A DNA stretch of 64,000 nucleotides from contig NW_026042397.1 of NCBI RefSeq assembly GCF_023856365.1, forward strand, positions 186,001 through 250,000. Reading direction: 5' to 3'. Below, piece by piece: positions 24,321 to 64,000 of the stretch (position 1 is its first letter; every line of letters starts with the position of its first letter). The stretch comes from Brienomyrus brachyistius. Its lineage: Eukaryota > Chordata > Actinopteri > Osteoglossiformes > Mormyridae. Made by a program: the position numbers and the translations under genes. Below the pieces are notes generated by a model. It saw nothing but the letters and a program-made list of their open reading frames with translations, had not been told where the DNA came from and did not search any database.

Positions 24321-25433
24321 GTGACTCTGGAAGTCGCATTAGATACTGTGTCCAGAAGCAGTCCATGCTGCGCTTAGGAATGATGTCTCTTCTAGTGTAG
24401 AACTGACTGTGGAATTTACTGTAAATACCTAGCAAAAAAAAAGCTGCCAGAAAAGTATTGCAAAATTGCTGTTAATCACTGTAAAACCCCCAGCTCCATG
24501 GGTGTCCCTACAGGTGGCTGCCCTTTGCTGCCAGGTTTGCTGTTACCTTTGTCTGTGCCCGTGTGTCAAGTAGAGCAAGATGGGGTAGGTGAAAAGAGAA
24601 TTTCCCCAAGGGGAGTAACAAAGCATCTTCATTTCATTTAGAAAATAATTACAAAATGTCTTTTACAGGTTTTGTCCTATGTAAATTACAGCAATTGTCT
24701 TTTTTAAACAGAAAAATAACAATTAACTGTAATCTAGTTTAAAATATTATATTGTATTCTATTCAAAATATAGAAGTTACCTAGCAACTGGAATTGGCAA
24801 TAAATGCTATTAATACTCCACAATACTGAATGTTGTTGTAGAATGCTTTCCAAGTTAATTTTTGTATTTTACATTTGCAGCTATGCAATCTATGCATATT
24901 GTTAAGTGGTTTAAATGAAACTAAGACGAAAATAACAGCCTGAGACAGAGACCCACACAGAACAAACTCACATTAACTGGAATGACATTAACTTGAAAAT
25001 TTCAGGATAATCTTCACACCCGTTAACCACTTGATGGAATTCAACTTAGTCAGAGTTGCAACAAAGTCAAGTATTTTTAAAACTGACCATATTCTAGGCT
25101 TAAAGGCCCAATTTGAAATCAGGACTGGACATAGAAATCTATTCAGAACAACATTACATTAATGTTAGAATAATGTTATATTTTTTGCTGGTCTGTGTTA
25201 ATGTAATGCAACAACTCTGGTCTAATACCTCCCTGTCACTTTAATGCTGGATGTGTGTGCAATTTATAACAAGTTAGGCAAGCCACGGATTCAACCATTA
25301 AACTGCATTTTCATTCCACATTTTTTGACAGTTCTGTCCAAAATCATATTCCACCAAATCAGCCGTTACAAATTCCAATAACTTCAACCTTCAAATGTAT
25401 TAAAGTTGATCTTTTTCAGTGTGTTCCTAAATC

Positions 25434-25625
25434 TTACGGTATAAGCAAAAGGTATAAATAAAAGATTAAGAACAATTTCCATTTGAATAGTGGAGAAGAG
25501 TCCTCATCTTTTGTACATGTCTCATGCTCAGAGTCCATCAATCGCCTGAGGAGAGAGGAGACGTGAGGATTGACTGAGTTGTTCTTCTCAGGCATCGTCC
25601 CACTTCTTTGGCTTGCAGTCTTCAT
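25434..25625 (-). other. 63-codon open frame, left-arm copy
   Basis: Open frame starting MKTASQRSGTMPEKNN and ending in a hydrophobic stretch (LFLIFYLYLLLIP). It is identical in the right-arm copy. Identity here reflects the recent duplication and is not proof of coding. I do not recognise it; a short secreted or membrane peptide cannot be excluded. Confidence 0.2.
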
Positions 25626-26281
25626 GCTGCTGGTTGGATTGATTCCAATGAAACAGTTTAAACCGCAAAATCACATGAATAAAACTTACGCTGACCCTCA
25701 CTGAAGCGGCCTGGTATCTGTTTCATACCTCACTTTACAACACACAGGACTTTTTTTTAAATTTAAAGGCACAAGTTATTTTACGTCATGGCCAACCCAC
25801 GTTTGCTAGTTTAATGGCAGAAAAATAGTCAAAGCCAGGCGCCTGGTCCACAAGGGTTGTACTCAGTCACTGCTGTTTTTATGGTGTAAACATGCTATAA
25901 ACTAATTTTTTCAAACATTTTCTTTAAGAGCTAGGGGCGCTAGGTGGATTGCTATTATAATGATGGATTTGCCAGGCAGAAGAAAAGAATGCTTCTCTGC
26001 AGAGATACAAAAAATCTGCTTGTGCACAATGTGAAAGCGTGCGAGCAGACCATCTACAACAGCAGCAGGATTACACCAAAGTAGAGGTCTGCATTCCTGT
26101 GGAACCCACGGCAATAAAGTGCAGTGCAGGACAAACTTTCATTTTTGAATGCAGGAGCAGGAGGGAAGTGACTGATATGTTCGCAGGGAAAAAGAATGAA
26201 ACAAGTGTTTTTTGTTATCAAACAATTTTTTATTTGCGTGAGTAAATACAAAATTACACAGCAAAGTATAGCACGTTATCA

Positions 26282-26455
26282 CAACATTACATTGTGTGAA
26301 AGCGCTTTACAGCATCCCCACCCAAAGCCCCCAGTGAGTAAGCCATAGGCGACAGTGGCAAGGAAAAACTCCCTAGAAGGAAGAAACCTTGGGAGGCACC
26401 AGACTCAAAGGGGAAGCCCAAACCTCCAGGGGCCGGCAGGGATAGTCAAAAACAC
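26282..26455 (-). repeat. Common fish interspersed repeat fragment, left arm
   Basis: It contains AAAGCGCTTTACAGCATCCC and GGCGACAGTGGCAAGG, landmarks I associate with a widespread fish repeat. The class is uncertain. The right-arm mirror is at about 61871-62044. Confidence 0.5.
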
Positions 26456-26502
26456 ACACACCAGATAACTGCAACAGGTTCTTCTACATATCCTATACAT
26501 GG

Positions 26503-26600
26503 GCATGGTACAGTGATGCAGTGGTTAAAACTGTTAACTCACACCTCTGGGGACATTCATCCATTTTCTGAAACCGCTTCTCCTGTTCAGCGTTGCTCCA
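26503..26600 (+). mobile_element. SINE head fused to an inverted SINE tail
   Basis: The first half (CAGTGATGCAGTGGTTAAAA to ACACCTCTGGGG) is a plus-strand SINE head. It is followed at once by CATTCATCCATTTTCTGAAA, the SINE tail in reverse orientation. The body between is missing. The mirror copy lies at about 61726-61823. Confidence 0.6.
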
Positions 26601-26739
26601 GCTGACAGCTTAAGCAATTCATCTGTATCTGAATGAGGAAAAACAACATACAGGCAATACAATGGAGCTGTCAGTCACTCCTGGCACATGGAATACAGTT
26701 CTGCACTGACACCTCCGCAATGAACAATTGCATTATAGC

Positions 26740-27300
26740 ATAGGAAACTAGTTAACTTTCACATAAAATTTAGATATAATCAAAACAGAAGCCTGGAACA
26801 ATTTTAAATTTTACTAAATGGCAATATACTGATTTTGGTCACCAAACAAACTTTACAGGACTTGCTTCACTACTTTTATTTGTGTTTCTTACAATACATC
26901 TGCCCTCTCCTGGTCTGGTGGAATATCATTGCTGTAGGCAGCACCGAGCGAAACCACCCGCATCCGCAGTAGAATGCAACATGAAAGCGCACGCGGAAAA
27001 GTGAAATATCACCTAGACTTTGCGGCACAGGAAACTAGCCGACTTGCACATGAAATTTAAATTTAACCAACACAGCACCCCACAACAATGTTCACTTTAT
27101 TTAAAAGAAATGAACTAATTTACTCACTAGCAAGCGCAATAATGTACTTAAACGCAGGAAAGCGCACGCGGAAAAGTTAAATGTCAACTACACTTTGCGC
27201 ATAAAATTTAAATATAATTAACATAGTAGCCCAGAACAAAATCACTTTATTTAAAAGCAATATACTGACTTTACTCATCAAACATATTTTAATATACATG
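26740..27300. repeat. Degenerate tandem repeat of three units, left arm
   Basis: Three diverged tandem units share the order CTAGTT/CCGACTT..., CACATAAAATTTA, a stretch of AACA and CACTTTATTTAAAAG, then ACTGA/TTACTCA. Starts are near 26745, 27025 and 27185. The GCGCACGCGGAAAAGT motif separates them. The right-arm copy is at about 61026-61586 and lacks 14 bp next to this motif. Confidence 0.6.
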
Positions 27301-28245
27301 CAAATTTGACAAATACTAAATAATAAGATAAATTATCCGATAAAATGGGAGCAGAATGGCAACCCACCTTGGTGCAGAAAACAAGTGAAGCCGCGTCTTT
27401 CAAACCGGCAGCGTCCCACGTGCCGAGGAGTCAAATGTAATCAAGCAACACGGCCCACACACATTAAATAATAACATCATAATAATTATAGTTCTTGTAT
27501 AATTATTCTCTATATTATTCTATAATAAGATTTTAAAACAGACTTTTATAAGTTAAGTTGTATACCGAGAACAGTATGCGACAGCATAAGCATATAACTC
27601 TTAAGGGTTTATTAATTAAAAATCACACATTCATCCTGCTTAACATAAAACAATGACTTAAAGAGACTTAATTGTGAAATGAACGCTACTGTCCGAGGGT
27701 ATTTATCTCCACAAATTGCTATGGAACATAATGTCTTAAATACTCAGATTTTCAGAATGACAGAATCTTAACATTTTAAATTTTGTTTTGCGATACCGAT
27801 ACGTAGTGATATTGGTATGTGGAACAACGTTAAACTGTAGTTAGATTAAGTGCGTATTCACAATTTACCCGTTTGCCTTTTATCGTGACTGAGCACGATC
27901 CCCCACCCCAGCTGGTCTGCACTCCCCACATTGCAATTAACGATCCAGACCTCAGCGCTTTTGTTACCGTGGGACTTTGTTGCGTTGAAGAAAACATTAA
28001 AATGAAGTCTGAGGAATGTTACATGACACAGCTAAAATGCAAAAACTCTCTCTGGTGTAATTCACTGCATAAAACCAATAGTCTTAAGTGTGGTGCCTTC
28101 TTCATAACACTCCCTGACTTTTGTATTCGTGACCATGAGATACGGTGGCCTTTTCTTCCTTCATTTGACTAGTGTTCCTCCCTTTCCTCCCAGCCTTGGT
28201 TGGTGGTTCAGGCAGCATCACCTTCTTTTAATAGACCCAGGTGTA
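27300..28245. other. No gene seen, left arm (mirror 60117-61026)
   Basis: The open frame at 27873-28172 is kept in both arms but shows no domain. A GC-richer patch near 27360-27440 (GGCAGCGTCCCACGTGCCG) could be promoter-like; nothing more can be said. Confidence 0.3.
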
Positions 28246-28555
28246 TCCATCCATCCATTTTCCAAACCACTAATCATACTGGGTCGTGGGGGGTCCGGAG
28301 CCTATCCCAGAAGCAATGGGCACGAGGCAGGGAACAACCCAGGATGGGGGGCCAGCCCATTGCAGGGCACACTCACACACCATTCACTCACACATGCACA
28401 CCTAGGGGCAATTTAGCAACTCCAATTAGCCTCAGCATGTTTTTGGACTGTGGGGGGGAAACCGGAGTACCCGGAGAAAACCCCACGACGATATGGAGAG
28501 AACATGCAAACTCCACACACATGTGATCCAGGCAGAGACTCGAACCTGGGTCACC
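28246..28555 (-). mobile_element. SINE with replaced 5' end, left arm
   Basis: The tail is at 28246 (ATCCATCCATCCATTTTCC) and the body reads toward 28555 on the plus strand in reverse. The first 45-50 bp of the element (A-box side) are missing. The sequence switches after CCTGGGTCACCCAG to unrelated DNA, whereas the right-arm copy is complete. Confidence 0.85.
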
Positions 28556-29085
28556 CAGGTGTCATTTATTTTGAAATTCGGTTCAAGTGCAGAAAATGTT
28601 CTAGCAGAAGTCTTGGACAATCTCTGAATTACACAGAAATCTGACTTCTTCTGAAGCTGTGAGAAATTGTTCTTCTGTAATTGTTGCATTGATATTTGTT
28701 GATGTGCGTGTGCCCTCCTTGAGCAGTAAAGGGGAGATCACATGCAGAGCTGATTTTCTGTAGTTTCTTAGTCTAAATAAAAATAAAATATTCTCTTCAT
28801 ATAGGCTGGACATTTCTAGAAAAGAGCCAATTAGTTATTTCTAGAAAAATATATGGAGCCAATGAAAGGACCTGACGTCATAGTAGCACAGATCACTGTC
28901 CGTGGTGCTGAATTTTCTACTTGTTGGGTTGGCGCTGAACAAATAGGATAACCGGCCACCGTGTCTGTGTGCCTCCACTGATTGGCCCCCTGACATATAA
29001 TTATTTTTAAGACTGAAGGGGAGAAAGATCATACAGGAAATTAGTTAACAGTAATTAGCAATCACTTATAGTTCTCATTTATAAT
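28556..29085 (-). repeat. Left-arm-only segment, part of a dispersed repeat
   Basis: About 500 bp without counterpart in the right arm. On the minus strand it resembles 14900-15260 (TTACTGCTCAAGGAGGGCAC, GCCGGTTATCCTATTTG, AATCAGTGGAGGCACACAG). It sits between the truncated SINE and the flank ATTTATAATGATGT. Confidence 0.75.
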
Positions 29086-29099
29086 GATGTAAATTTAAA

Positions 29100-29104
<5 letters not shown>

Positions 29105-29177
<73 letters not shown>
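29105..29177. repeat. (TA)n microsatellite, left arm
   Basis: Perfect alternating TA for about 73 bp. The right-arm mirror at 59651-59731 is about 8 bp longer. Confidence 0.97.
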
Positions 29178-29179
<2 letters not shown>

Positions 29180-29479
29180 TTAAAAACAAAATATAATCCT
29201 GATTTAATGTATCCCTTCTGCTCTTAAAAAAGCACAATATGTCTGAAAGACAAATATGTCTATTACTCTACATGTTTTAATAATTTTGTTAATATTACCT
29301 AATTTGCTTATCTTTTTTTCTGTAATCACTCTGCATTAAAGCAATTTTTAAAACTAGCTGTGATACTGATGATTCTGTTGTTATTCTGACTGTTGTTGCC
29401 CTGGTGCCTTAGGATACGTCTGTCTAAACATAATTGAGAGGATGGATGCATTATTCTATGGAGGCCTCTGAAGAGAATA

Positions 29480-29626
29480 AATGATCCCAATATTATATTG
29501 AGAGAGATGGTTAAATCAGAGCTGGATAAGATTTTAACAACTCTGAGCTATTAGTTAAGTTCTTCCCAAACGAGCTTGATGGGCCGAATGGGCTCCTCTA
29601 ATTTGTAAATTTCTTATGTTCTAAGA
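29480..29626 (+). mobile_element. CR1/L2-type LINE 3' end fragment, left arm
   Basis: The sequence from GTTAAATCAGAGCTGGATAA through CCCAAACGAGCTTGATGGG to TTCTTATGTTCTAA matches the 3' end of the LINE at 32785-33590. The mirror is at 59200-59346. Confidence 0.7.
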
Positions 29627-29628
29627 TA

Positions 29629-30103
29629 TACAGTACTGTGCAAAAGTCTTAGGCAGTCCAAAGAAATGTTTAAAGCTGTTTATCTGGGTAGCAAGTGTAC
29701 TTTGGCTTAGAACAAATAACACAATTTAACATTAGAACGTGTAAATTAAGAGGAACACAATAAAAACTATTAATAATTTCTTCTCTTTTCTAAAAAGATA
29801 CTGATATCTAGTCGGATGGCTAGATGAACACCGCTTCAGTTCCCAAACTTCTCCTCAGGGGCACCTCAGCCGTTCCATGATTTTGACAGATTGACTAGCT
29901 GTATGAGGTGTGCTAGTGGCCAAGTCAAAAAATACATGGCTGCACTGGACGGTCGCTACAAATACTAGGATGATGTTAGCAGAGGTTCTGAAATGGCTAA
30001 GCTGAGACACTTTGACAGGCATAATATCATAGTTTTACACCAACACGAGGACAATCTAAACATCGTTTTCTTTGCCTGCCTAAGATTTTTGCACAGTGCT
30101 GTA
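29629..30103. mobile_element. Tc1-type MITE, left arm
   Basis: A 475-bp element with terminal inverted repeats: TACAGTACTGTGCAAAAGTC at the left end, and TTGCACAGTGCTGTA as the right end. It is flanked by TA and has no transposase. The terminal sequence is typical of non-autonomous Tc1/mariner elements in fish. The interior frame 29993-30202 is not a gene. Confidence 0.85.
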
Positions 30104-30859
30104 CATGGAAGTCTCAATTCAACCCTATCCTTTCCTAAGTGCCATACTTCTGTTGAAAAAAGAAAATTACAGATTGGAAACCTTTTAATAAAGAAACTGT
30201 GATAGAAAATTCTTGATTATGCTAATCAGTAATCAATAATGGAATGTAGATGATTATGCAAAATGCATTACCTAATCAGTAATTAACAATTGAGTTTACA
30301 ATGTGTTGTTGATTTACACATAGTGGTTGAAACAATGTAATTTACTTGTCATTAATTGAATGTATCAAACAAGAATGCAAATCTGCTTAAGTAAGAAATT
30401 TCTATTTTCTATAGAGGAACTAACATGTTTGCCATATATTGCTTGATCAGCAAGAGGCCCAGGTCAAAGCAAAGGCTTGACCTGAGAAGTAAGCTGTTGC
30501 AGAAGATATTATAAAATGAATGCATGGTATTGGATAATATAAAATGTAGAAAAAGAGAACAACGAGTCCTAGAATAATATAGCAAAAGGAAAAGTCCCAA
30601 ATAGATAGACTTGTTCTAAGCTGATAGGTGGACCTTGAAAACGTAGAAGAAACTGGTATCTCCAAATGGCCAAACTTTCTTTGTACTGCCTGGACCTTGA
30701 AAGGCAGAAGTAACTGGAACGTCCAAAAATCCGATTTGTCCTTGATTTGTCAGATGACTGTCGCATTTTAGGCCATAAAAGATGTATGCATTTGTTGCTC
30801 GGGGAGCAGAACACAAGACGCATGCTTGCTGAGTGTCTGTTCCCTGTGAGCTCATCAAA

Positions 30860-32340
30860 TAATAAAGTTCTGTCAAACACTTAAACATCGGACTTCGAGA
30901 AATTTCTTCCACAAAACACTCTGTTCTCGTTAACAATTTTTCAGTTATAAATTCCATATTATACACTTTCTTTCCTCTTTCTTTCCATTGTACTGTCGTG
31001 GGTGTCTGGGGTTTTAGCCAGGAGATCGTTATCATCCTCCTGGCAATTACAAGAAGAACTCTCTGTAATACAACCTTATTTTCATGCACTATATTCTGTG
31101 GCATAATTCCTAGTATGAAACGAGCTGGTTCAAGTGGTAATTTTATGTTCAAACATTTATTTTTTATCTCTTCCTGTATATTTTGCCAGTACTCTGACAA
31201 TTCTGGATAATCCCAAAAAATGTGGGTGTGGTCTCCTACCAGGTCACAACCCCTCCAATAAACCCCTGATTTGAGGTGTTACCAAACGTAGAGGTGAGAA
31301 GGGGAGTCTTAAAGTATCTCATCTTAACTTTCCAATCAAATTCCCACCATGTAGGACTGTTTGTTATTCTGTGTCCTTCTTTACATGAATGAGTCCAATC
31401 TTCATCGTTAATGATAGTATTCATCTCTAGTTCTCATTTCTCTTTATTAACACTGTTGACTCCTTTTGCAATATTTTATAAATATATGATATAATGTTCT
31501 TTTTAACCAATCCTTTAATTGTTCATATAAACAATATATTTGTTGACTGTAGGTATCTAAAACAATCGGGCACTGGGAGGCCACATTTATTTCTAAGATG
31601 TTCGAAGGACATTAGATCTCCTCCATCACACAACTGATCCAACTGGTTAAACCTCTTTTCTCCCCATGTCTTAAACCCTGTATCTAATTTAGATGGTAGA
31701 AAAAATCAACATTCTGTGCAATTTTCATTGATCTTGATATTGATGAAGGGCGTCCCAGCCTCTCTCTCACTTTTCAGAGCGTTTCCTATCCAAATGTTAT
31801 TGATTTTATTTACTTTCCGTGTATCTTGATTAAAAATAATTGCTATGTCCAGCGGCAAATTTGGGCAGATACTCTGTTCCATTACCACCCACTGACCCTC
31901 CCTGTCCTGGGTAATCCATACCACTACTGATATAAGTTGGGCTGCCAAGTAATATTTTTTTTAATTAGGCAAGTCAGGACCCGCATTCTCTTTTGGGTTT
32001 AATAGTCTTTTCAGTTCAATCCTGGGTCTTTTGTTTTGCCAGGTAAATTTGGATAACCATTTATTGAGCGTTTTGAATGTAGATATAGGGACCCCTATGG
32101 GCAGGGACTGGAACATAAAGAGAAGCCTAGGTGGTATGTTCATTCTAATGCTCTCCACTCTCCCCAATAAGGATAGAGGGAGGATTTCCCATCTTTGAGA
32201 TAATTCTTTATTTCACATAGTAATTTACCATAATTAGTTTTGTATAAGTATGATATACCAGGATCCCTCGGTATCTAAAGCCATAACTGTGGAATCAAAT
32301 TTAGTATTTGCGAGCTTTAATGCAAAAAACATTCTCTGTA
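30860..32340 (-). mobile_element. L1-Tx1-type LINE, C-terminal half of ORF2, left arm
   Basis: Minus-strand frames 32167-31961 (PLLFMFQSLPIG-like region with LNKWLSKFTWQNKRPRIELK), 31948-31706, 31424-31236 and 31200-30860 (YWQNIQEEIK, FILGIMPQNIVHENKVVLQ, MITISWLKPQTPTTVQW) cover the thumb and C-terminal region of a LINE reverse transcriptase protein. The endonuclease and the catalytic reverse-transcriptase part are absent, and frames are broken. The element is dead. Confidence 0.85.
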
Positions 32341-32784
32341 ATATAAGTGTGGGTAGGTTACTGTAAAATTTGGACAAATCTTAAACTTAAGATGTGTAAG
32401 GTGTAGTGAACAGGGAGTTCAGTATAGGACTAAACATGCAAGGGAAGAAGTAGATAATTAGTGAAACTTTTGACCGGACTGGAGATCTGAGGAGTCATAC
32501 ACAGATAAATGGCACAGCAGATATTTTTGTCTGCTTTTGAGATGGTTGACGTGACATATTTTCCGACGCGCGCTCTCTGTCCGCTGGTGGGAGTGTGCTC
32601 ACCTGTCTGCATCGGGGCGGAAGTCCGCCATGCGCAATACAGAGAGCAGAGGAGAATTGTAAATACGCGACTGTGTAGACGAGACAAAAATGACAAGCAT
32701 TTGTGTAAATAAGATAAATAGCATAAGGCTATTTCATTTGTTTAATAAAAGTACAATGTATAGACTTGTTCTATAGGAAAAGTA

Positions 32785-33590
32785 ACCTTAAGAACATAAG
32801 AAATTTACTAACGAGAGGAAGCCATCCGGCCCATCAAGCACTTTTGGGAAAAACTTACCTAACAGCTCAGAGTTGGTAAAATCTTATCTAGCTCTGATTT
32901 AAAGAAACCCAGGGTTTTAGCTTGCGCTACACTAGTAGGAAGACTATTCCATACTCTAACTACACGCTGTGTAAAGAAGTGCTTCCTCAAATTCGTTTTA
33001 AAATGTTCTCCCGCTAAATTCTACTTGTGGCCACGAGTTCTAGTATGTCATGTAACTCACCATCCAGACCTGTTAGAATCTTATATAACTGGCTCATGCC
33101 CCCACTTAGTCTGAACAGATTCAGCTCAACTAACCTGTCCTCATAAGACATTCCGCTAAGACTGGGAATCATTCTCGTAGCCCTACGTTGCACCTTTTCC
33201 AAGGCAGCAATGTCCATCTTAAGGTATGGTGACCAAACCTGCACACAATATTCTAGGTGGGGTCTTACCAAGGAATTATACAATCATAGCATCACTTCCT
33301 TTGACTTAAACTCCACACACCTAGAGATGTAACCCAACATTCTATTTGCCTTTTTTATTGCTTCCCCACACTGGCGAGAGTGGGACATGGAAGCATCAAC
33401 ATACACACCGAGGTCTTTCTCATAATCAGCTACCTTTATTTCAGTGGAACCCATAAAATATCTGTACTTTATATTTCTGCCATATTTCTGGATGTGGCAG
33501 TGTGTGAGGAGATGGAGACTCTGATAAAGTATCATAAGGCTAATAAGAACACAGAAAGGTGTAACAAGAAAAGGAGTGAGCAACTGGAGG
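32785..33590 (-). mobile_element. CR1/L2-type LINE, reverse transcriptase C-terminus, left arm
   Basis: Frames 33583-33284 (KVADYEKDLGVYVDASMSHS) and 33283-33014 (YNSLVRPHLEYCVQVWSPYL, ALEKVQRRATRMI) are the end of a CR1/L2-like reverse transcriptase protein, followed by the 3' tail with GGCCCATCAAGC. A substitution makes a stop between the two frames (CTATGATTG read as a stop), and the left copy has lost part of SLEQRRL. The element is inactive. Confidence 0.85.
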
Positions 33591-35200
33591 TTCTGAGGTT
33601 ATGGCAAAGGGAGAGGCCTGGAGAAAAGAGCAGAAAGTGATGAGAGAGTGATGAGTGAGAATCAGGCAGGAGTCAAAGGTGAAACAGAGCAGGAGGAGTT
33701 ACGACTTCCTCTGTATCAGGGACTGTATCTGTTAGTAGAAGGGCCACCTCTGATATTTAAGGGCCACTTTCCAGTAATAGAGGGCAAGGTAAAGTTCAGA
33801 GGGGAAGAAACAGAAGGATGAAGAAAGTTGTTTATATGGGTACAGGGAAGTGAGCGACCAGCGGCGGCAGACCGTGAAGGAAGGACTGCGAAGGAGTGAT
33901 ATAATAATAGAAGGCCAGGCATGTGGGTTTAAGAAAAAAGGGGGTGATATAAAGGTGGGGTGCGGAGCAAGTGGTAGGGCTGCAGAAGGGCTGATGCATC
34001 TGATGGACAGCCCTAACCCTCCATGTAGAGGATGGAGTCAGTTTCAGGAGAAGGAGATAGAAACGGATAGTGAGGAAGGAGTAGAGGAGGATAATGCAGA
34101 TCATAGAACAGTGGGAAGCAGGAGGGCTGTGAGACCCCCGATAGGGACACTCTGATGCTCCCCCTGGTGGCGAAAGGAGCACAGACACAGTATGTACCAT
34201 GGGCAGAACAGTCCTGGCAGACGGAGCTTGAAAATGGATGAAAGTATTTGAGGAGGAAACTATGGGACGGCTCTTGGTGATGGGGGACATAAAAGCGGTT
34301 CAGGCTTGTGTCCTGGGGGTAGACGGAATGGAGAGAATGCTGGCAGTGGTGACAGGGACTAGGTGTGGCTGAAATGAAGGAGGAGCCCGTAAAGGAGGGG
34401 GAGAGCCCAGCTGCCTATCTGCAAGCCCAAGAAAAGCGGTGGAGCACTGAGACAGAGCAGGACCTACAGGATTCGGTGTTCAGAGGTCTGTACCGGAGGG
34501 CACTGCAGGACACGCTCCTGAAGCCAGTGAGAAGCAGGCTAAGGCAAGTGGTGGCGCTTATTACTATTCCTGAGAAGCAGCTGATCCACGCTATTGACTT
34601 GTACAGAGAGGAGGAGGACTCTGCTGAAGAGCATGAGAGGGAGCTGACGAAGAAATTGAGTCAGTCACCGCCAAAAAAACAAGGCCACTAATTGGCCTCC
34701 GGTTCCTAATTAGAACAGGTGAGTAGATACAATGGATGGGGGTTTCCTCAGAGGGTACCCATTTACTCACAAATTTGATGATCCTAGACCCTGGGGAGAC
34801 TGGGGAACAGGCTGATTCAGCTGGTGTGCTGGAGCTGTGATCAGCATAGACACACCTGTCCAACCTGCATGTTCCAGAATCTTGCATGACAACAGACTGG
34901 ATAATATTAGGCCCTGAGGGAGTAGCCATTCAGATACGGAGGACTGGTGGGAATGGTACAACACACCAGAGGAGGAGCCCCCCTTAGCAGTGGCTTTTAA
35001 TCAGCCCACGCTAAATCTGGGAGAAATGATGGGGCGAGCAAAGCAGGTGGTTTGGGTGCCGACAGAACATGAAGGAGTGCAGGCAGCGGCAGGAGAGAAG
35101 CTGGTAAGGAGTCAGTCGAGTGCAGAGAGTGTAGGAGATTTCAGAGGTTTGTGGTTGTGGAGCATGATTGGAGTGCAGTGTGAAGGGAAATAAAGGACAG
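33591..35200 (+). mobile_element. Endogenous retrovirus gag-like segment, left arm
   Basis: Plus-strand frames 33850-34155 and 34365-34691 are polar and charged. The second contains EPVKEGESPAAYLQ and ends in a Lys-rich tail, in the style of a retroviral capsid C-terminus. The frame 34990-35193 follows. About 425 bp found in the right copy are missing here, at the junction CCAGAATCTT|GCATGAC near 34885. Frames are interrupted and no LTR pair was found. The virus group is uncertain; gag identity is inferred from layout. Confidence 0.6.
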
Positions 35201-39867: not shown

Positions 39868-39983
39868 CTGATATAAACACGTACCTATAAAATATATTAT
39901 GTTTAGTTTATAAGCTTATTTCATTACAACAAACAAGCACAATCCATAAGTGCACTAGGCCTAACACATGGTTCAGAAGCCTC

Positions 39984-52639: not shown

Positions 52640-54665
52640 CCTTCACACTGCACTCCTATCATGCTCCACAACCACAAACCTCTGAAATCTCCTACACTCT
52701 CTGCACTCGACTGACTCCTTACCAGCTTCTCTCCTGCTGCTGCCTGCACTCCTCCATGTTCTGTCGGCACCCAAACCACCTGCTTTGCTCGCCCCATCAT
52801 TTCTCCCAGATCCAGCGTGGGCTGATTAAAAGCCACTGCTAAGGGGGGCTCCTCCTCTGGTGTGTTGTACCATTCTCCCACTACTCCCATCCTCCGTATC
52901 TGAATGGCTACTCCCTCAGGGCCTAATATTATCCAGTCTGCCGTCATGTGCATCCCGTCTTTCTCTCGGTCAGGCAGCGGATCTATCAGCCGATCCCACT
53001 CATCCCTCACTCCAGGATCACTGAAATCTCCCATCACAACTAACAACTGTATTTATCCTATTTCCAATTTAGCACATTGCTATATTGTTCCTGTATAAAT
53101 GGTCCCCACTATTCTAGGATTTCCCAAACCTTTCCAATAACTTCTTCTAATCCGTATAAGCTATACTATCCCTGCTGGACAACAACCTTTGTTGCAGAAG
53201 GGTGAACTGTCCACTGAGTACCTCTACTCCCCCTTCGTACATTTTATGTCTATCTGCAGCTGACACACAGCATCTCTGCCTAACAAATTCACTGGGATAT
53301 GCTCTGATGTTAGTTTAGACATATTTACATTTTTGGCCCCTATCTGAACATCTACTAAAGAAGATTCTGGAACATGCAGGTTGGACAGGTGTGTCTATGC
53401 TGATCACAGCTCCAGCACACCAGCTGAATCAGCCTGTTTCCCAGTCTCCCAGGGGTCTAGGATCATCAAATTTGTGAGTAAATGGGTGCCCTCTGAGGAA
53501 ACCCCCATCCATTGTATCTACTCACTCTGTTCTAATTAGGGACCGGAGGCCAATTAGTGGCCTTGTTTTTTTGGCAGTGACTGACTCAATTTCTTCGTCA
53601 GCTCCCTCTCATGCTCTTCAGCAGAGTCCTCCTCCTCTCTGTACAAGTCAATAGCGTGGATCAGCTGCTCCTCAGGAATAGTAATAAGTCCCACCACTTG
53701 CCTTAGCCTGCTTCTCACTGGCTTCGGGAGCGTGTCCTGCAGAGCCCTCCGGTACAGACCGCTGAACACCAAATCCTGTAGGTCCTGCTCTGCCTCACTG
53801 CTCCACCGCTTTTCTTGGGCTTGCAGATAGGCAGCTGGGCTCTCCCCCTCCTTTACGGGCTCCACCTTCATTTCAGCCACACTCAATCACGGAGTCCCTG
53901 TCACCACTGCCAGCATTCTCTCCATTCCGTCTACCCCCAGGACACAAGCCTGAACCGCTTTTATATCCCCCATCACCAAGAGCCGTCCCATAGTTTCCTC
54001 CTCAAATACTTTCATCCATTTTCAAGCTCCGTCTGCCAGGACTGTTCTGCCCATGGCACATACTGTGTCTGTGCTCCTTTCACCACCAGGGGGAGCATCA
54101 GAGTGTCCCTATCGGGGGTCTCACAGCCCTCCTGCTTCCCACTGTTCTATGATCTGCATTATCCTCCTCTACTCCTTCCTCACTATCCGTTTCTATCTCC
54201 TTCTCCTGAAACTGACTCCATCCTCTACATGGGGAGTTAGGGCTGTCCATCAGATGCATCAGCCCTTCTGCAGCCCTACCACTTGCTCCGTACCCCACCT
54301 TTATATCACTCCCCTTTTTCTTAAACCCACATGCCTGGCCTTCTATTATTATATCACTCCCTCGCAGTCCTTCCTTCACGGTCTGCCGCCGCAGGTCGCT
54401 CACTTCCCTGTACCCATATAAACAACTTTCTTCATCCTTCTGTTTCTTCCCCTCTGAACTTTATCTTGCCCTCTATTACTGGAAAGTGGCCCTTAAATAT
54501 CAGAGGTGGCCCTTCTACTAACAGATACAGTCCCTGATACTGAGGAAGTCGTAATTCCTCCTGCTCTGTTTTACCTTTGACTCCTGCCTGATTCTCACTC
54601 ATCACTCTCTCATCACTTTCTGCTCTTTTCTCCAGGCCTCTCCCTTTGCTATAACCTCAGAACCT
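52640..54665 (-). mobile_element. Endogenous retrovirus gag-protease-like segment, right arm
   Basis: Mirror of 33591-35200 with additional sequence at about 52943-53369. In that added part the minus strand reads a short piece with NLLGRDAVCQLQ, like the C-terminal end of a retroviral aspartic protease. Gag-like frames are 54403-54098 and 53886-53554. A further 137-codon frame (53046-52633) is unbroken but unrecognised. Stops separate all parts, so nothing functional can be read through. Confidence 0.6.
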
Positions 54666-55480
54666 CCAGTTGCTCACTCCTTTTCTTGTTACGCCTTGCT
54701 GTGTTCTTATTAGCCTTATGATACTTTATCAGAGTCTCCATCTCCTCACACACTGCCACATCCAGAAATATAGCAGAAATATACAGTACAGATATTTTAC
54801 GGGTTCCACTGAAATAAAGGTAGCTGATTATGAGAAAGATCTCAGTGTGTATGTTGATGCTTCCATGTCCCACTCTCGCCAGTGTGGGGAAGCAATAAAA
54901 AAGTTAAATAGAATGTTGGGTTACAACTCTAGGTGTGTGGAGTTTAAGTCAAAGGAAGTGATGCTACGATTATATAATTCCCTGGTAAGACCCCACCTAG
55001 AATATTTTGTGCATGTTTGGTCACCATACCTTAAGAAGGACATTGCTGCCTTGGAAAAGTTGCAACGTAGGGCTACGAGAATGATTCCTGGTCTTAGAGG
55101 AATGTCTTATGAGGACAGGTTAGTTGAGCTGAATCTGTTCAGCCTCGAGCAAAGGAGACTAAGTTGGGGCATGATCCAGGTATATAAGATTCTAACAGGT
55201 CTGGATGGCGGTGACATGACATACTACAACTCGTGGCCACAAGTGGAATTTAGCGGGAGAACATTTTAAAGCGAATTTCAGGAAGCACTTCTTTACACAG
55301 CGTGTAGTTAGAGTATGGGATAGTCTTCCTACTAGTGTAGCGCAAGCTAAAACCCTGGGTTTCTTTAAATCAGAGCTAGATAAGATTTTACCAACTCTGA
55401 GCTGTTAGGTACGTTTTCCCCAAAAGTGCTTGATGGGCCGGATGGCTTCCTCTCGTTTGTAAATTTCTTATGTTCTTAAG
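54665..55480 (+). mobile_element. CR1/L2-type LINE, reverse transcriptase C-terminus, right arm
   Basis: Mirror of 32785-33590, but with one 199-codon frame (54670-55269) covering the region in one piece. It retains the segment LFSLEQRRLSWGMIQVYKIL that is damaged in the left copy. The 3' tail ends TTCTTATGTTCTTAAGG. The clade is assigned by style only. Confidence 0.85.
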
Positions 55481-56133
55481 GTTACTTTTCCTATAGAATA
55501 AGTCTATACGTTGTCCTTTTCTTAAAGAAACTAAATAGCCTAATGCTATTTATCTTATTTACACAAAAGCTTGTCATTTTTGTCTCTACACGGTCGCTCA
55601 TTTACTATTCTCCTCTGCTCTCTGTATTGCGCATGGCGGACTTCCGCCCCGATGCAGACAGGTGAGCACACTCCCACCAGCGGACAGAGAGCGCACGTCG
55701 GAAAATATGTCACGTCAACCATCTGAAAAGCAGACAAAAATATCTGCTGTGTCATATATCTTTAGATGACTCCTCAGATCTCCAGTCCAGTCAAAAGTTT
55801 CACTAATTATCTACTTCTTCCCTTGCATGTTTAGTCCTATACTGAACTCCCTGATCGCTACACCTTACTGTTGCTTTAAGTTTAAGATTCGTCCAAATTT
55901 TACAGTAACCTACCCACACTTATACTACAGAGAATGTTTTTGCATTAAAGCTCTCAAATATTAAGTTTCGATTCCACAGTTATGGCTTTAGATACCTAGG
56001 GATCCTGGTATATCATACTTATACAAGACTAATTATGGTAAATTACTATGTGAAATAAAGAATTATCTCCAAAGATGGGAAATCCTCCCTCTATCCTTAT
56101 TGGGTAGAGTGGAGAGCATTAGAATGAACATAC

Positions 56134-56412
56134 TGTCACGATCAGGAAATATCTGTAGCGGCGATCGTGCCGGAAACTGGCAAGGCAGGCAAGGTACGGG
56201 GAATAAAGGGGATTTATTAAGTGGACGAGGTTTCGGGAAAATTTGACAGGGACTAACAACAATCCACAATGACAGACAAGGGTAACTGGCAAGACCAGGA
56301 CTTAAAACAGGACAAGACTAAGCAAAGTAATCAGACAAGGCTGGAAACAATCAGGGAAGCACACGCGGGTAATCAGGGGGCACACGAGGAGCCGACGAGC
56401 CGGATCATGACA
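56134..56412 (-). mobile_element. Solo LTR, 279 bp, right arm only
   Basis: It begins TGTCACGATC and ends GATCATGACA, with the TG...CA ends of an LTR. It is flanked by a perfect 5-bp duplication CATAC (56129-56133 and 56413-56417). The left arm has the empty site (ATGAACATACCACC in reverse complement). The minus strand carries TTAATAAATCCCC, a polyadenylation signal placed as in an LTR. It is therefore a solo LTR in minus orientation, inserted after the duplication or lost by neither arm. Confidence 0.9.
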
Positions 56413-56704
56413 CATACTACCTAGGCTTCTCTTTATGTTCCAGTCCCTGCCCATAGGGGTCCCTATATCCACATTCAAAACGCTCAATAAATGGTTATCC
56501 AAATTTACCTGGCAAAACAAAAGACCCAGGATTGAACTGAAAAGACTATTAAACCCAAAAGAGAATGAGGGTCTGGACTTACCTAATTTAAAAAATTATT
56601 ACTTGGCAGCCCAACTTATGTCAGTAGTGGTATGGATAACCCAGGACAGGGAGGGTCAGTGGGTGGGAACAGAACAATCTGCCCAAATTTGCCGCTTGAC
56701 ATAG

Positions 56705-56993
56705 TGTGACGCCCGCTCCGTCCGCTCCTCGTGTGTGCCACGCCCCCTAATTACCCACGTGTGATTCCCTGATTGTGCCCAGTCGTGTCTTGTTTCCTGC
56801 TGCCTTGTTCCGTGTATTTAAGTCCCTGTTTTGCATTAACCCCTTGTCTGTCATTGATGTTAGTCAGTGTCTGATGTCTCCTTCCCCAGTTCCCTTAAAT
56901 AAATCCCCCATTTTCCCTGAGTTCTGGCTACCTCGCTTGTTTCCTGCCCGCTCGCCTGCTCGCCCGCTTTAACCCCGGAGAGCCAGCGTGACA
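56705..56993 (+). mobile_element. Solo LTR, 289 bp, right arm only
   Basis: It begins TGTGACGCCC and ends AGCGTGACA. It is flanked by a perfect 5-bp duplication CATAG (56700-56704 and 56994-56998). The left arm shows the empty site with a single CATAG. It carries GTATTTAAGTCC (TATA-like) and TTAAATAAATCCCC (polyadenylation signal). Its internal words (CTCCTCGTGTG, ATTACCCACGTG, TGTCTGTCATTG) match the minus strand of the LTR at 56134-56412, so both belong to one family in opposite orientation. Confidence 0.92.
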
Positions 56994-58722
56994 CATAGCA
57001 ATTATTTTTAATCAAGATACATGGAAAGTAAATAAAATCAATAACATTTGGATAGGAAACACTCTGAAAAGTGAGAGAGAGGCTGGGACGCCCTTCATCA
57101 AAAATAAAAATTGCACATGATGTTGATTTTCTACCATCTAAATTAGATACAGGGTTTAAGACATGGGGAGAAAAGGGTTTAACCAGTTGGATCAGTTGTG
57201 TAATGGAGGAGATCTAATGTCCTTCGAACATCTTAGAAACAAATGTGGCCTCCCAGTGCCCAACTGTTTTAGATACCTACAGTCAACAAATATATTGTTT
57301 ATATTAACAATTAAAGGATTGGTTAAAAGAACATTATATCATATATTTATAAAATATTACAAAAAGAGTCAACAGTGTTAATAAAGAGAAATGGGAACTA
57401 GAGATGAATACTATCATTAACGATGAAGATTGGACTCATTCATGTAAAGAAGGACACAGAATAACAAACAGTCCTACATGGAGGGAATTTGATTGGAAAG
57501 TTAAGATGAGATACTTTAAGACTCCCCTTCTCACCTCTACGTTTGGCAACACCTCTAATCAGGGGTTTATTGGAGGGGTTGTGACCTGGTAGGAGACCAC
57601 ACCCACATTTTTTGGGATTGTCCAAAACTGTCAGAGTACTGGCAAAATATACAGGAAGAGATAAAAAAAATGTTTGAACATAAAATTACCACTTGAACCA
57701 GCTCGTTTCATACTAAGAATTATGCCACAGAATATAGTGCATGAAAATAAGGTTGTATTACAGAGAGTTCTTCTTGTAATTGCCAGGAGGATGATAACGA
57801 TCTCCTGGCTAAAACCCCAGCCACCCACGACAGTACAATGGAAAGAAAGAGGAAAGAAAGTGTATAATATGGAATTTATAACTGAAAAATTGTTAACGAG
57901 AACAGAGTGTTTTGTGGAAGAAATTTCTCGAAGTCCGATGTTTAAGTGTTTGACAGAACTTTATTATTTGATGAGCTCACAGGGAACAGACACTCAGCAA
58001 GCATGCGTCTTGTGTTCTGCTCCCCGAGCAACAAATGCATACATCTTTTATGGCCTAAAATGCGACAGTCATCTGACAAATCAAGGACAAATCGGATTTT
58101 TGGACGTTCCAGTTACTTCTGCCTTTCAAGGTCCAGGCAGTTCAAAGAAAGTTTGGCCATTTGGAGATACCAGTTTCTTCTACGTTTTCAAGGTCCACCT
58201 ATCAGCTTAGAACAAGTCTATCTATTTGGGACTTTTCCTTTTGCTATATTATTCTAGGACTCGTTGTTCTCTTTTTCTACATTTTATATTATCCAATACC
58301 ATGCATTCATTTTATAATATCTTCTGCAACAGCTTACTTCTCAGGTCATGCCTTTGCTTTGACCTGGGCCTCTTGCTGAACAAGCAATATATGGCAAACA
58401 TGTTAGTTCCTCTATAGAAAATAGAAATTTCTTACTTAAGCAGATTTGCATTCTTGTTTGATACATTCAATTAATGACAAGTAAATTACATTGTTTCAAC
58501 CACTATGTGTAAATCAACAACACATTGTAAACTCAATTGTTAATTACTGATTAGGTAATGCATTTTGCATAATCATCTATATTCCATTATTGATTACTGA
58601 TTAGCATAATCAAGAATTTTCTATCACAGTTTCTTTATTAAAAGGTTTCCAATCTGTAATTTTCTTTTTTCAACAGAAGTATGGCACTTAGGAAAGGATA
58701 GGGTTGAATTGAGACTTCCATG

Positions 58723-59197
58723 TACAGCACTGTGCAAAAATCTTAGGCAGGCAAAGAAAACGATGTTTAGATTGTCCTCGTGTTGGTGTAAAACTATGAT
58801 ATTATGCCTGTCAAAGTGTCTCAGCTTAGCCATTTCAGAACCTCTGCTAACATCATCCTAGTATTTGTAGCGACCGTCCAGTGCAGCCATGTATTTTTTG
58901 ACTTGGCCACTAGCACACCTCATACAGCTAGTCAATCTGTCAAAATCATGGAACGGCTGAGGTGCCCCTGAGGAGAAGTTTGGGAACTGAAGCGGTGTTC
59001 ATCTAGCCATCCGACTAGATATCAGTATCTTTTTAGAAAAGAGAAGAAATTATTAATAGTTTTTATTGTGTTCCTCTTAATTTACACGTTCTAATGTTAA
59101 ATTGTGTTATTTGTTCTAAGCCAAAGTACACTTGCTACCCAGATAAACAGCTTTAAACATTTCTTTGGACTGCCTAAGACTTTTGCACAGTACTGTA
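58723..59197. mobile_element. Tc1-type MITE, right arm
   Basis: Mirror of 29629-30103, with the same length and the same ends. It shows that the MITE inserted before the arms were duplicated. Confidence 0.85.
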
Positions 59198-59199
59198 TA

Positions 59200-59346
59200 T
59201 CTTAGAACATAAGAAATTTACAAATTAGAGGAGCCCATTCGGCCCATCAAGCTCGTTTGGGAAGAACTTAACTAATAGCTCAGAGTTGTTAAAATCTTAT
59301 CCAGCTCTGATTTAACCATCTCTCTCAATATAATATTGGGATCATT
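59200..59346 (-). mobile_element. CR1/L2-type LINE 3' end fragment, right arm
   Basis: Mirror of 29480-29626, starting TTAGAACATAAGAAATTTAC on the plus strand. It abuts the MITE at 58723-59197. Confidence 0.7.
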
Positions 59347-59648
59347 TATTCTCTTCAGAGGCCTCCATAGAATAATGCATCCATCCTCTCAATTATGTTT
59401 AGACAGACGTATCCTAAGGCACCAGGGCAACAACAGTCAGAATAACAACAGAATCATCAGTATCACAGCTAGTTTTAAAAATTGCTTTAATGCAGAGTGA
59501 TTACAGAAAAAAAGATAAGCAAATTAGGTAATATTAACAAAATTATTAAAACATGTAGAGTAATAGACATATTTGTCTTTCAGACATATTGTGCTTTTTT
59601 TTAAGAGCAGAAGGGATACATTAAATCAGGATTATATTTTGTTTTTAA

Positions 59649-59650
<2 letters not shown>

Positions 59651-59731
<81 letters not shown>
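59651..59731. repeat. (AT)n microsatellite, right arm
   Basis: Mirror of 29105-29177. It is a perfect self-complementary dinucleotide run of about 81 bp directly upstream of a SINE. Confidence 0.97.
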
Positions 59732-59734
<3 letters not shown>

Positions 59735-59759
59735 TTTTTAAATTTACATCATTATAAAT

Positions 59760-60116
59760 GGGGCGGCATGGTGGTGCAGTGGTTAGCACTGTCGCCTCAC
59801 ACCTCTGGGACCCGGGTTCGAGTCTCCGCCTGGGTCACATGTGTGCAGAGTTTGCATGTTCTCTCCATATCGTCGTGGGGTTTTCTCCGGGTACTCCGGT
59901 TTCCCCCCCACAGTCCAAAAACATGCTGAGGCTAATTGGAGTTGCTAAATTGCCCCTAGGTGTGCATGTGTGAGTGAATGGTGTGTGAGTGTGCCCTGCA
60001 ATGGGCCGGCCCCCCATCCTGGGTTGTTCCCTGCCTCGTGCCCATTGCTTCTGGGATAGGCTCCGGACCCCCCACGACCCAGTATGATTAGTGGTTTGGA
60101 AAATGGATGGATGGAT
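59760..60116 (+). mobile_element. tRNA-derived SINE, best full-length copy
   Basis: It starts GGGGCGGCATGGTGGTGCAG. The A-box-like TGGTGCAGTGG lies near 59770 and the B-box-like GGTTCGAGTCT near 59815, as in tRNA-derived SINEs transcribed by RNA polymerase III. The body carries CCGGGTACTCCGGTTTCC and ACATGCTGAGGCTAATTGG, and the tail is GGATGGATGGAT. Such elements move with LINE machinery. It is the reference copy for the five other pieces in this window. Confidence 0.95.
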
Positions 60117-61025
60117 ACACCTGGGTCTATTAAAAGAAGGTGATGCTGCCTGAACCACCAACCAAGGCTGGGAGGAAAGGGAGGAACACTAGTCAAATGA
60201 AGGAAGAAAATACAAAAAATACAAAAGTCAGGGAGTGTTATGAAGAAGGCACCACACTTAAGACTATTGGTTTTATGCAGTGAATTACACCAGAGAGAGT
60301 TTTTGCATTTTAGCTGTGTCATGTAACATTCCTCAGACTTCATTTTAATGTTTTCTTCAACGCAACAAAGTCCCACGGTAACAAAAGCGCTGAGGTCTGG
60401 ATCGTTAATTGCAATGTGGGGAGTGCAGACCAGCTGGGGTGGGGGATCGTGCTCAGTCACGATAAAAGGCAAACGGGTAAATTGTGAATACGCACTTAAT
60501 CTAACTACAGTTTAACGTTGTTCCACATACCAATATCACTACGTATCGGTATCGCAAAACAAAATTTAAAATGTTAAGATTCTGTCATTCTGAAAATCTG
60601 AGTATTTAAGACATTATGTTCCATAGCAATTTGTGGAGATAAATACCCTCGGACAGTAGCGTTCATTTCACAATTAAGTCTCTTTAAGTCATTGTTTTAT
60701 GTTAAGCAGGATGAATGTGTGATTTTTAATTAATAAACCTTTAAGGGTTATATGCTTATGCTGTTGTATACTGTTCTCGGTGTACAACTTAACTTATAAA
60801 AGTCTGTTCATCTAATTATAGAATAATGTATAGAATAATTATAAAAGAGCTATAATTATTATGATGTTATTATTTAATTGTGTGGGCCGTGTTGCTTGAT
60901 TACATTTGACTCCTCGGCACGTGGGACGCTGCCGGTTTGAAAGACGCGGCTTCACTTGTTTTCTGCACCAAGGTGGGTTGCCATTCTGCTCCCATTTTAT
61001 CGGATAATTTATCTTATTATTTAGT

Positions 61026-61586
61026 ATTTGTCAAATTTGCATGTATATTAAAATATGTTTGATGAGTAAAGTCAGTATATTGCTTTTAAATAAAGTGATT
61101 TTGTTCCGGGCTACTATGTTAATTATATTTAAATTTTATGCGCAAAGTGTAGTTGACATTTAACTTTTCCGCGTTTAAGTACATTATTGCGCTTGCTAGT
61201 GAGTAAATTAGTTCATTTCTTTTAAATAAAGTGAACATTGTTGTGGGGTGCTGTGTTGGTTAAATTTAAATTTCATGTGCAAGTCGGCTAGTTTCCTGTG
61301 CCGCAAAGTCTAGGTGATATTTCACTTTTCCGCGTGCGCTTTCATGTTGCATTCTACTGCGGATGCGGGTGGTTTCGCTCGGTGCTGCCTACAGCAATGA
61401 TATTCCACCAGACCAGGAGAGGGCAGATGTATTGTAAGAAACACGAATAAAAGTAGTGAAGCAAGTCCTGTAAAGTTTGTTTGGTGACTAAAATCAGTAT
61501 ATTGCCATTTAGTAAAATTTAAAATTGTTCCAGGCTTCTGTTTTGATTATATCTAAATTTTATGTGAAAGTTAACTAGTTTCCTAT
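61026..61586. repeat. Degenerate tandem repeat of three units, right arm
   Basis: Mirror of 26740-27300. At about 61170 the sequence goes directly from TTTTCCGCG to TTTAAGTACA, missing a 14-bp piece that the left arm has. Confidence 0.6.
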
Positions 61587-61870
61587 GCTATAATGCAATT
61601 GTTCATTGCGGAGGTGTCAGTGCAGAACTGTATTCCATGTGCCAGGAGTGACTGACAGCTCCATTGTATTGCCTGTATGTTGTTTTTCCTCATTCAGATA
61701 CAGATGAATTGCTTAAGCTGTCAGCTGGAGCAACGCTGAACAGGAGAAGCGGTTTCAGAAAATGGATGAATGTCCCCAGAGGTGTGAGTTAACAGTTTTA
61801 ACCACTGCATCACTGTACCATGCCCCTGTATAGGATATGTAGAAGAACCTGTTGCAGTTATCTGGTGTGT

Positions 61871-62044
61871 GTGTTTTTGACTCTCCCTGCCGGCCCCTGG
61901 AGGTTTGGGCTTCCCCTTTGAGTCTGGTGCCTCCCAAGGTTTCTTCCTTCTAGGGAGTTTTTCCTTGCCACTGTCGCCTATGGCTTACTCACTGGGGGCT
62001 TTGGGTGGGGATGCTGTAAAGTGCTTTCAGACAATGTAATGTTG
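61871..62044 (+). repeat. Common fish interspersed repeat fragment, right arm
   Basis: Mirror of 26282-26455 (CCTTGCCACTGTCGCC and GATGCTGTAAAGTGCTTTC). The right copy reads GTGCTTTCAGACAATG where the left copy reads, in reverse complement, GCGCTTTCACACAATG. This is one of the few substitutions in the outer arm. Confidence 0.5.
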
Positions 62045-62700
62045 TGATAACGTGCTATACTTTGTTGTGTAATTTTGTATTTACTCACGCAAATAAAAAA
62101 TTGTTTGATAACAAAAAACACTTGTTTCATTCTTTTTCCCTGCGAACATATCAGTCACTTCCCTCCTGCTCCTGCATTCAAAAATGAAAGTTTGTCCTGC
62201 ACTGCACTTTATTGCCGTGGGTTCCACAGGAATGCAGACCTCTACTTTGGTGTAATCCTGCTGCTGTTGTAGATGGTCTGCTCGCACGCTTTCACATTGT
62301 GCACAAGCAGATTTTTTGTATCTCTGCAGAGAAGCATTCTTTTCTTCTGCCTGGCAAATCCATCATTATAATAGCAATCCACCTAGCGCCCCTAGCTCTT
62401 AAAGAAAATGTTTGAAAAAATTAGTTTATAGCATGTTTACACCATAAAAACAGCAGTGACTGAGTACACCCTTGTGGACCAGGCGCCTGGCTTTGACTAT
62501 TTTTCTGCCATTAAACTAGCAAACGTGGGTTGGCCATGACGTAAAATAACTTGTGCCTTTAAATTAAAAAAAAAAGTCCTGTGTGTTGTAAAGTGAGGTA
62601 TGAAACAGATACCAGGCCGCTTCAGTGAGGGTCAGCGTAAGTTTTATTAATGTGATTTTGCGGTTTAAACTGTTTCATTGGAATCAATCCAACCAGCAGC

Positions 62701-62892
62701 ATGAAGACTGCAAGCCAAAGAAGTGGGACGATGCCTGAGAAGAACAACTCAGTCAATCCTCACGTCTCCTCTCTCCTCAGGCGATTGATGGACTCTGAGC
62801 ATGAGACATGTACAAAAGATGAGGACTCTTCTCCACTATTCAAATGGAAATTGTTCTTAATCTTTTATTTATACCTTTTGCTTATACCGTAA
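62701..62892 (+). other. 63-codon open frame, right-arm copy
   Basis: Mirror of 25434-25625 with the same translation. It is preceded within 60 bp by no recognisable promoter. Listed because it is one of the few non-repeat frames kept open in both arms. Confidence 0.2.
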
Positions 62893-64000
62893 GATTTAGG
62901 AACACACTGAAAAAGATCAACTTTAATACATTTGAAGGTTGAAGTTATTGGAATTTGTAACGGCTGATTTGGTGGAATATGATTTTGGACAGAACTGTCA
63001 AAAAATGTGGAATGAAAATGCAGTTTAATGGTTGAATCCGTGGCTTGCCTAACTTGTTATAAATTGCACACACATCCAGCATTAAAGTGACAGGGAGGTA
63101 TTAGACCAGAGTTGTTGCATTACATTAACACAGACCAGCAAAAAATATAACATTATTCTAACATTAATGTAATGTTGTTCTGAATAGATTTCTATGTCCA
63201 GTCCTGATTTCAAATTGGGCCTTTAAGCCTAGAATATGGTCAGTTTTAAAAATACTTGACTTTGTTGCAACTCTGACTAAGTTGAATTCCATCAAGTGGT
63301 TAACGGGTGTGAAGATTATCCTGAAATTTTCAAGTTAATGTCATTCCAGTTAATGTGAGTTTGTTCTGTGTGGGTCTCTGTCTCAGGCTGTCATTTTCGT
63401 CTTAGTCTCATTTAAACCACTTAACAATATGCATAGATTGCATAGCTGCAAATGTAAAATACAAAAATTAACTTGGAAAGCATTCTACAACAACATTCAG
63501 TATTGTGGAGTATTAATAGCATTTATTGCCAATTCCAGTTGCTAGGTAACTTCTATATTTTGAATAGAATACAATATAATATTTTAAACTAGATTACAGT
63601 TAATTGTTATTTTTCTGTTTAAAAAAGACAATTGCTGTAATTTACATAGGACAAAACCTGTAAAAGACATTTTGTAATTATTTTCTAAATGAAATGAAGA
63701 TGCTTTGTTACTCCCCTTGGGGAAATTCTCTTTTCACCTACCCCATCTTGCTCTACTTGACACACGGGCACAGACAAAGGTAACAGCAAACCTGGCAGCA
63801 AAGGGCAGCCACCTGTAGGGACACCCATGGAGCTGGGGGTTTTACAGTGATTAACAGCAATTTTGCAATACTTTTCTGGCAGCTTTTTTTTTTGCTAGGA
63901 ATTTACAGTAAATTCCACAGTCAGTTCTACACTAGAAGAGACATCATTCCTAAGCGCAGCATGGACTGCTTCCGGACACAGTATCTAATGCGACTTCCAG

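Follow-up and report, generated by a model that had tools for sequence, protein, structure and literature searches.

A giant inverted repeat of transposon-filled DNA in a mormyrid fish genome assembly: inverted duplication or joined haplotypes?

Long inverted repeats around an unduplicated spacer are known from several systems, with which we compare a giant inverted repeat in the genome assembly of the mormyrid fish Brienomyrus brachyistius (contig NW_026042397.1, positions 186,001 to 250,000; this stretch of 64,000 nucleotides is the window referred to below, and coordinates are counted from its first base). In human fold-back inverted duplications, too, a few kb of unduplicated spacer separate the inverted copies (766-70,466 bp, median 3,428 bp, for the 21 junctions reported), and a further likeness is that some of these junctions involve LINEs, short homologies or local insertions (PMC3907307). 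That report describes patient rearrangements, many of them beside terminal deletions, with duplicated segments from about 10 kb up to tens of Mb, whereas the fish arms are old (2.1% apart) and at least 17 kb long. The palindromes of ape sex chromosomes, for which one survey gives criteria of more than 8 kb and an arm identity of at least 98% (PMC11168930), and the human palindrome P6 (PMC3723533) share with the fish repeat long inverted arms, a spacer of lower GC content and a conversion-like mosaic. Minimum lengths of conversion tracts between palindrome arms are reported to reach 9,023 bp (PMC3723533). However, human Y palindrome arms are described as more than 99.9% alike, whereas the fish arms are borderline for the ape identity criterion and their 40 longer open reading frames (ORFs) have no Pfam domain. 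Palindrome W.P1 of the willow W chromosome, with arms of about 20 kb and a spacer given as 3,586 bp in Table 2 and as 2.6 kb in the text of its description, is closely similar in size and geometry, but W.P1 carries genes and is female-specific (PMC7023750). Finally, the inverted amplification ODIRA is described as a palindromic junction followed by a secondary rearrangement that enlarges the spacer, which resembles what we propose for arm B; ODIRA starts from a triplication, whereas the outer ends of the fish repeat lie outside the window (PMC10766186).

A preliminary description of this DNA had claimed a giant inverted repeat, and its existence is borne out. When the window was compared with its own minus strand (matches above 100 bp were reported), arm A at 24327-42013 paired with arm B at 64000-46714 in ten collinear inverted blocks of 93.7-98.3% identity, which is far beyond chance. 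The mirrored order of landmarks that had been described also holds in this self-comparison and in a global alignment of the arms, the individual landmarks having been checked in part. Likewise, the inner edges (42013 and 46714) and the 4.7 kb spacer stand as first given, but the outer edge (24326/24327) does not: arm B reaches the end of the window, so 24327 is the mirror of base 64000 and not a biological arm end. The arm lengths are therefore lower bounds, at least 17,687 bp on the left and at least 17,287 bp on the right. The parts of the repeat, from the self-comparison blocks and (for the arms) the global alignment, are:

24327..42013, plus strand: left arm (A)
46714..64000, minus strand: right arm (B), the reverse complement of arm A, to the window end
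42014..46713, no strand: spacer; its halves share no significant inverted homology, and it is probably composite, with the A version at its left end and the B version at its right

Arm homology breaks off sharply at 42013/46714, and the self-comparison found no significant inverted homology beyond these points, into the 4,700-bp spacer. The GC content is 37.1% in the spacer, 41.6 and 41.8% in the arms and 43.9% in the window, which contains no N. Matches of the spacer to the rest of the window (E <= 0.01; repeat matches were assessed within the window only) are at most 64 bp long, so there is little within the window to mislead an overlap assembler. An Rfam search and a tRNA search found nothing.

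We lean towards the view that the repeat is genuine, an inverted segmental duplication of transposon-rich DNA that has aged and been partly homogenised, a judgement that covers either order of events. The place where the two copies probably join is suggested by two transposon fragments, one of which crosses the left edge of the spacer and the other of which appears to cross the right edge:

41205..42625, minus strand: degraded remnant of L1 ORF2, from the endonuclease into the beginning of the reverse transcriptase; it continues collinearly over the arm/spacer edge at 42013 and contains frame changes
46714..47500 (end approximate), plus strand: L1 fragment in arm B, beginning only at 46714; GATAAGAG on both sides of 46714
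44519..48276, plus strand: hAT-like element, apparently across the spacer/arm-B edge; ATTATAAT flanks at 44519-44526 and 48269-48276, inverted ends at 44527-44539 and 48256-48268
40960..41193, minus strand: hAT C-terminal dimerisation region in arm A (PF05699, E 1.5e-7, 31.5 bits, cut-off 21.4)
42626..44518, no strand: interval of the likely true join (of inverted copies or of haplotypes), from L1 continuity on the left and hAT-like ends on the right

At the left edge, L1 ORF2 can be read on the minus strand, with frame changes, from 42625 across 42013 as far as an "SDHAPV" motif at 41943. The joined reading (with X at the frame changes) matched LINE-1 endonuclease chains over residues 3-227 in a PDB search (best E 1e-10), and against the Pfam family Exo_endo_phos it gave E 7e-5 and 23.1 bits, below the curated cut-off of 24.5. 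A single piece of the L1 had no match in the PDB search. We take 41205-41381 to be the reverse transcriptase part, for which Pfam gave no match. Because the L1 reads through 42013, we rejected a single inserted element as the source of the entire spacer.

At the right edge, the ends and flanks of the hAT-like element match in 20 of 21 bases, and its 8-bp ATTATAAT flanks are identical. The inverted pair at 44514-44539 and 48256-48281 (26 nt, 88% complementary) was the first listed of 70 in 44200-48400; two other pairs in this region are longer (28-29 nt) but only 71-79% complementary. hAT elements insert at targets of the form nTnnnnAn. Random pairs of such sites were identical in all eight bases in 123 of 200,000 cases, as were 22 of 200,000 pairs of any 8-mers. 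The dimerisation region has its arm-B counterpart in motifs at 47587-47667, and we presume that the reading at 45395-46203, where Pfam found nothing, is a hAT-like N-terminal part; this reading and the arm-B C-terminal region share one orientation between the ATTATAAT-flanked ends. Next to the 5' end of the hAT-like element, two 30-bp copies of a sequence that has ATTATAAT at its end (44426-44455 and 44497-44526, with one difference) enclose a short SINE-like piece. Both arms also contain a small ORF with an acidic C-terminal part (39994-40638 on the minus strand and 48251-48877 on the plus strand); the former has two protein relatives, one in Paramormyrops and one in Brienomyrus.

The continuity of the L1 over 42013 and the hAT-like ends around 46714 together suggest that the true join lies within 42626-44518. 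As judged from the sequence, the right part of the spacer was probably continuous with arm B before the rearrangement, and the left part with arm A; the spacer is probably composite, and 46714 is probably a deletion scar in the right copy and not the join. Our first view, that arm A and the spacer are ancestral and that 46714 is the copying breakpoint, was demoted once the hAT-like ends were found.

As a mechanism for the duplication, we propose that the ancestral locus held a hAT-type transposon with an L1 fragment inside. A break in the flank of this transposon, at about 42.63-44.52 kb, may have been repaired by fold-back or by a template switch into the inside of that transposon, and the neighbouring DNA would have been copied backwards to give the left arm. 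Later loss of the 5' part of the L1 in the right copy (the scar at 46714) would have enlarged the apparent spacer. Substitutions, deletions and MITE-like insertions would then have driven the arms apart. In the outer 7 kb and at 39.87-40.56 kb and 41.08-42.01 kb, the arms may have stayed alike or have been re-homogenised by arm-to-arm gene conversion. In this account, fold-back repair, the direction in which the DNA was copied, gene conversion and support of the join by reads are inferences. A 4.7 kb spacer without significant inverted homology is typical of the human fold-back spacers reported, about 0.8-70 kb (PMC3907307).

The arms had been called near-perfect, which is too strong. The unmasked global alignment of arm A and arm B has 343 mismatches in 16,052 aligned columns (2.14%; identity 97.86%). 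Among its 52 indels, 8 measure 50 bp or more and 14 are of 1 bp (6 of these 14 in homopolymers). There are 205 transitions, 52 of which sit in CpG context, and 138 transversions, a ratio of 1.5. By these substitution types and the few 1-bp indels, the differences between the arms are biological and not read errors. After masking, in which columns within 40 bp of indels of at least 3 bp were dropped, 237 of the 14,238 kept columns differ (1.66%; identity 98.34%).

Divergence is distributed unevenly along the arms. Its variance/mean ratio in 250-bp bins of the masked alignment was 3.98, which was equalled in 0 of 10,000 permutations, and for the unmasked alignment a two-state model had a log-likelihood of -1560, versus -1658 for a single rate. 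The limits of the following stretches were set after inspecting the unmasked two-state model, some of whose "high" stretches lie at misaligned indel edges (for example, 28503-29086); the counts are of kept columns:

24327..31189, plus strand: low-divergence part, 27/5,963 differ (0.45%)
31190..36800, plus strand: high-divergence part, 143/4,602 differ (3.11%)
36801-39866: arm stretch, 33/1,854 differ (1.78%)
39867-40555: arm stretch, 2/530 differ (0.38%)
40556-41076: arm stretch, 23/434 differ (5.3%)
41077-42011: arm stretch, 9/855 differ (1.05%)

This mosaic is expected from gene conversion between the arms and also from recombination among alleles.

Several insertions or deletions are private to one arm:

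56705..56998, minus strand: 294-bp insertion in arm B only, with the short duplication CTATG at its flanks; empty site in arm A at 31842
56135..56418, minus strand: 284-bp insertion in arm B only, with GTATG at its flanks; empty site in arm A at 32132
38894..39866, plus strand: 973 bp in arm A only, an insertion in A or a deletion in B (global alignment)
52950..53360, plus strand: 411 bp in arm B only, without visible duplicated flanks (global alignment)

The 411 bp are probably missing from arm A by loss. These arm-specific insertions and indels exclude one molecule read on both strands, and they imply two separate lineages of the segment, be they paralogues or alleles. Perfect AT dinucleotide runs, mirrored at 29105-29177 and 59651-59730, lie beside about 475 bp that are private to arm A.

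For comparison with ordinary allelic variation, the genome report for the mormyrid Campylomormyrus gives a heterozygosity of 0.96% and a GC content of 43.69% (43.9% in its table) (PMC10029256). The mean divergence of the arms (2.1%, roughly twice as high), the blocks of 3-5% and the 8 indels of at least 50 bp are all above this published heterozygosity. Other observations weigh against a duplication or against parts of our account of it. Paralogues and alleles are inseparable by this sequence, and back-to-back alleles that differ by a deletion would give the same native edges. The outer 7 kb are only 0.45% divergent, which is an ordinary allelic value. There is doubt about reading the flanks of the hAT-like element as a target duplication, since ATTATAAT is self-complementary and present at 9 places in the window; it may instead be part of the inverted ends, and the 8 bp that follow further out on each side then match in 5 of 8 positions. 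The 8-bp GATAAGAG repeat at 46714 supports any mechanism weakly, as 214 of 20,000 random pairs had an 8-mer or longer in common.

The alternative that survives best is an assembly artefact: two haplotypes of a single-copy locus would have been placed back to back and falsely joined at 42.63-44.52 kb. Of the two, haplotype A would have the longer L1, and haplotype B the hAT-like element with a deletion in the L1. We regard this as possible but less likely. The preliminary description had named a join of haplotypes in opposite orientation as the main competitor. Both homology edges look native to their own side (the L1 runs through 42013 and the hAT-like element through 46714), as they would be in alleles, and the part with 0.45% divergence lies below the 0.96% heterozygosity given for one mormyrid, whereas the blocks of 3-5% lie well above it (PMC10029256). 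The average of 2.1%, these blocks and, within 16 kb, eight indels of 50 bp or more are high for alleles. Furthermore, there is no N at the join, and with spacer matches of at most 64 bp in the window, a chimeric molecule would probably be needed.

Another order of events, to which we give a small chance that overlaps with that of a genuine duplication, is that arm A and the whole spacer are ancestral and that arm B is the copy, its template switch falling precisely at 42013/46714. Two separate insertions would in this case have to be assumed for the hAT-like 5' half (spacer) and 3' half (arm B). This order agrees with the collinearity of the L1 reading over 42013 and with the presence of GATAAGAG on both sides of 46714, and the self-complementary ATTATAAT might be part of family-wide ends. 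But separate insertions would have to account for identical ATTATAAT flanks at 44519 and 48276 and for matching ends in the correct orientation, with the chance frequencies given above; if ATTATAAT is part of the ends, the match of the next 8 bp drops to 5/8.

The preliminary description had also suggested a sex-linked or ampliconic region, which we found to be unsupported; sex linkage of the repeat is a guess. A palindrome in a sex-determining or ampliconic region of recent origin, with arms held alike by selection and arm-to-arm conversion, seems to us a very improbable reading of the repeat, and we rate slightly lower still a real palindrome in a young, undescribed mormyrid sex-determining region whose arms are partly kept alike by ongoing gene conversion. 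The arms, at 17.3 kb or more, do exceed the published ape size criterion of 8 kb (PMC11168930) and show a conversion-like mosaic, and the GC content of the spacer (37.1%, versus about 42% in the arms) differs in the same direction as reported for ape palindromes; one AT-rich spacer, though like theirs, proves little. However, the arm identity (97.86% unmasked, 98.34% masked) is borderline for the ape criterion of at least 98%. Furthermore, none of the 40 arm ORFs of at least 110 amino acids (19 in arm A and 21 in arm B, counting one over the B edge) had a Pfam domain at E <= 0.01, a scan that genes with short exons would escape. Reverse transcriptase, in two L1 ORFs at 0.8-2.6 kb, was the one family that Pfam detected among ten ORFs of the window, and a second scan, of ten pieces, gave only PF05699 above the cut-off. 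As judged by title, the literature search found nothing on mormyrid sex chromosomes, and for palindromes or large inverted repeats in teleosts or on autosomes the titles were of sex-chromosome cases, with no autosomal teleost parallel; in a paper on the stickleback Y, "palindrom" occurs in the reference list only (4 places).

Lastly, a single-molecule fold-back read (from a missed adapter or an inverted chimera) carried into the assembly would yield back-to-back copies, but these would differ by read errors only, so with 343 substitutions at a transition/transversion ratio of 1.5, indels mostly outside homopolymers and arm-specific insertions with duplicated flanks, which rule it out, we consider its chance negligible.

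By the protein relatives of three of its ORFs (the small ORF in arm A and the two that follow), the window probably belongs to a mormyrid or a close relative. For the CR1/L2-like ORF at 54655-55269 in the right arm, the four best of 1,090 matches (120 of which were listed) are from Paramormyrops and Brienomyrus, at 77-88% identity. Outside the arms, a 282-amino-acid ORF (10790-11638, minus strand) has five relatives, all from Paramormyrops or Brienomyrus, one of them a cluster with 63 members; on these matches its family is seemingly lineage-restricted and multi-copy. In three reading frames of its minus strand, a GC-rich minisatellite at 6300-10242 (period 29, about 138 copies) stays open over long distances; these frames probably stem from the repeat unit and are not genes. 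Four copies of a repeat family that we take to be SINE-like (17750-18023, 21597-21944, 28253-28562 and 59758-60108) are 88-95% alike, and short matches to this family at 44367-44430 and 44454-44492 adjoin the hAT-like element. Fragments at 18299-18966, 34353-34691 and 52633-53052 are presumably retrovirus-like; Pfam gave nothing above the cut-off for these three ORFs.

If the repeat is an artefact, it is a caution that back-to-back alleles of a heterozygous fish can mimic a palindrome, and edges that are native to both sides would be a warning sign. If it is real, it would add a well-resolved case of inverted segmental duplication from beyond the usual model species, one in which the order of events can be read, and its clear mosaic of divergence would be of use in studies of arm-to-arm conversion.

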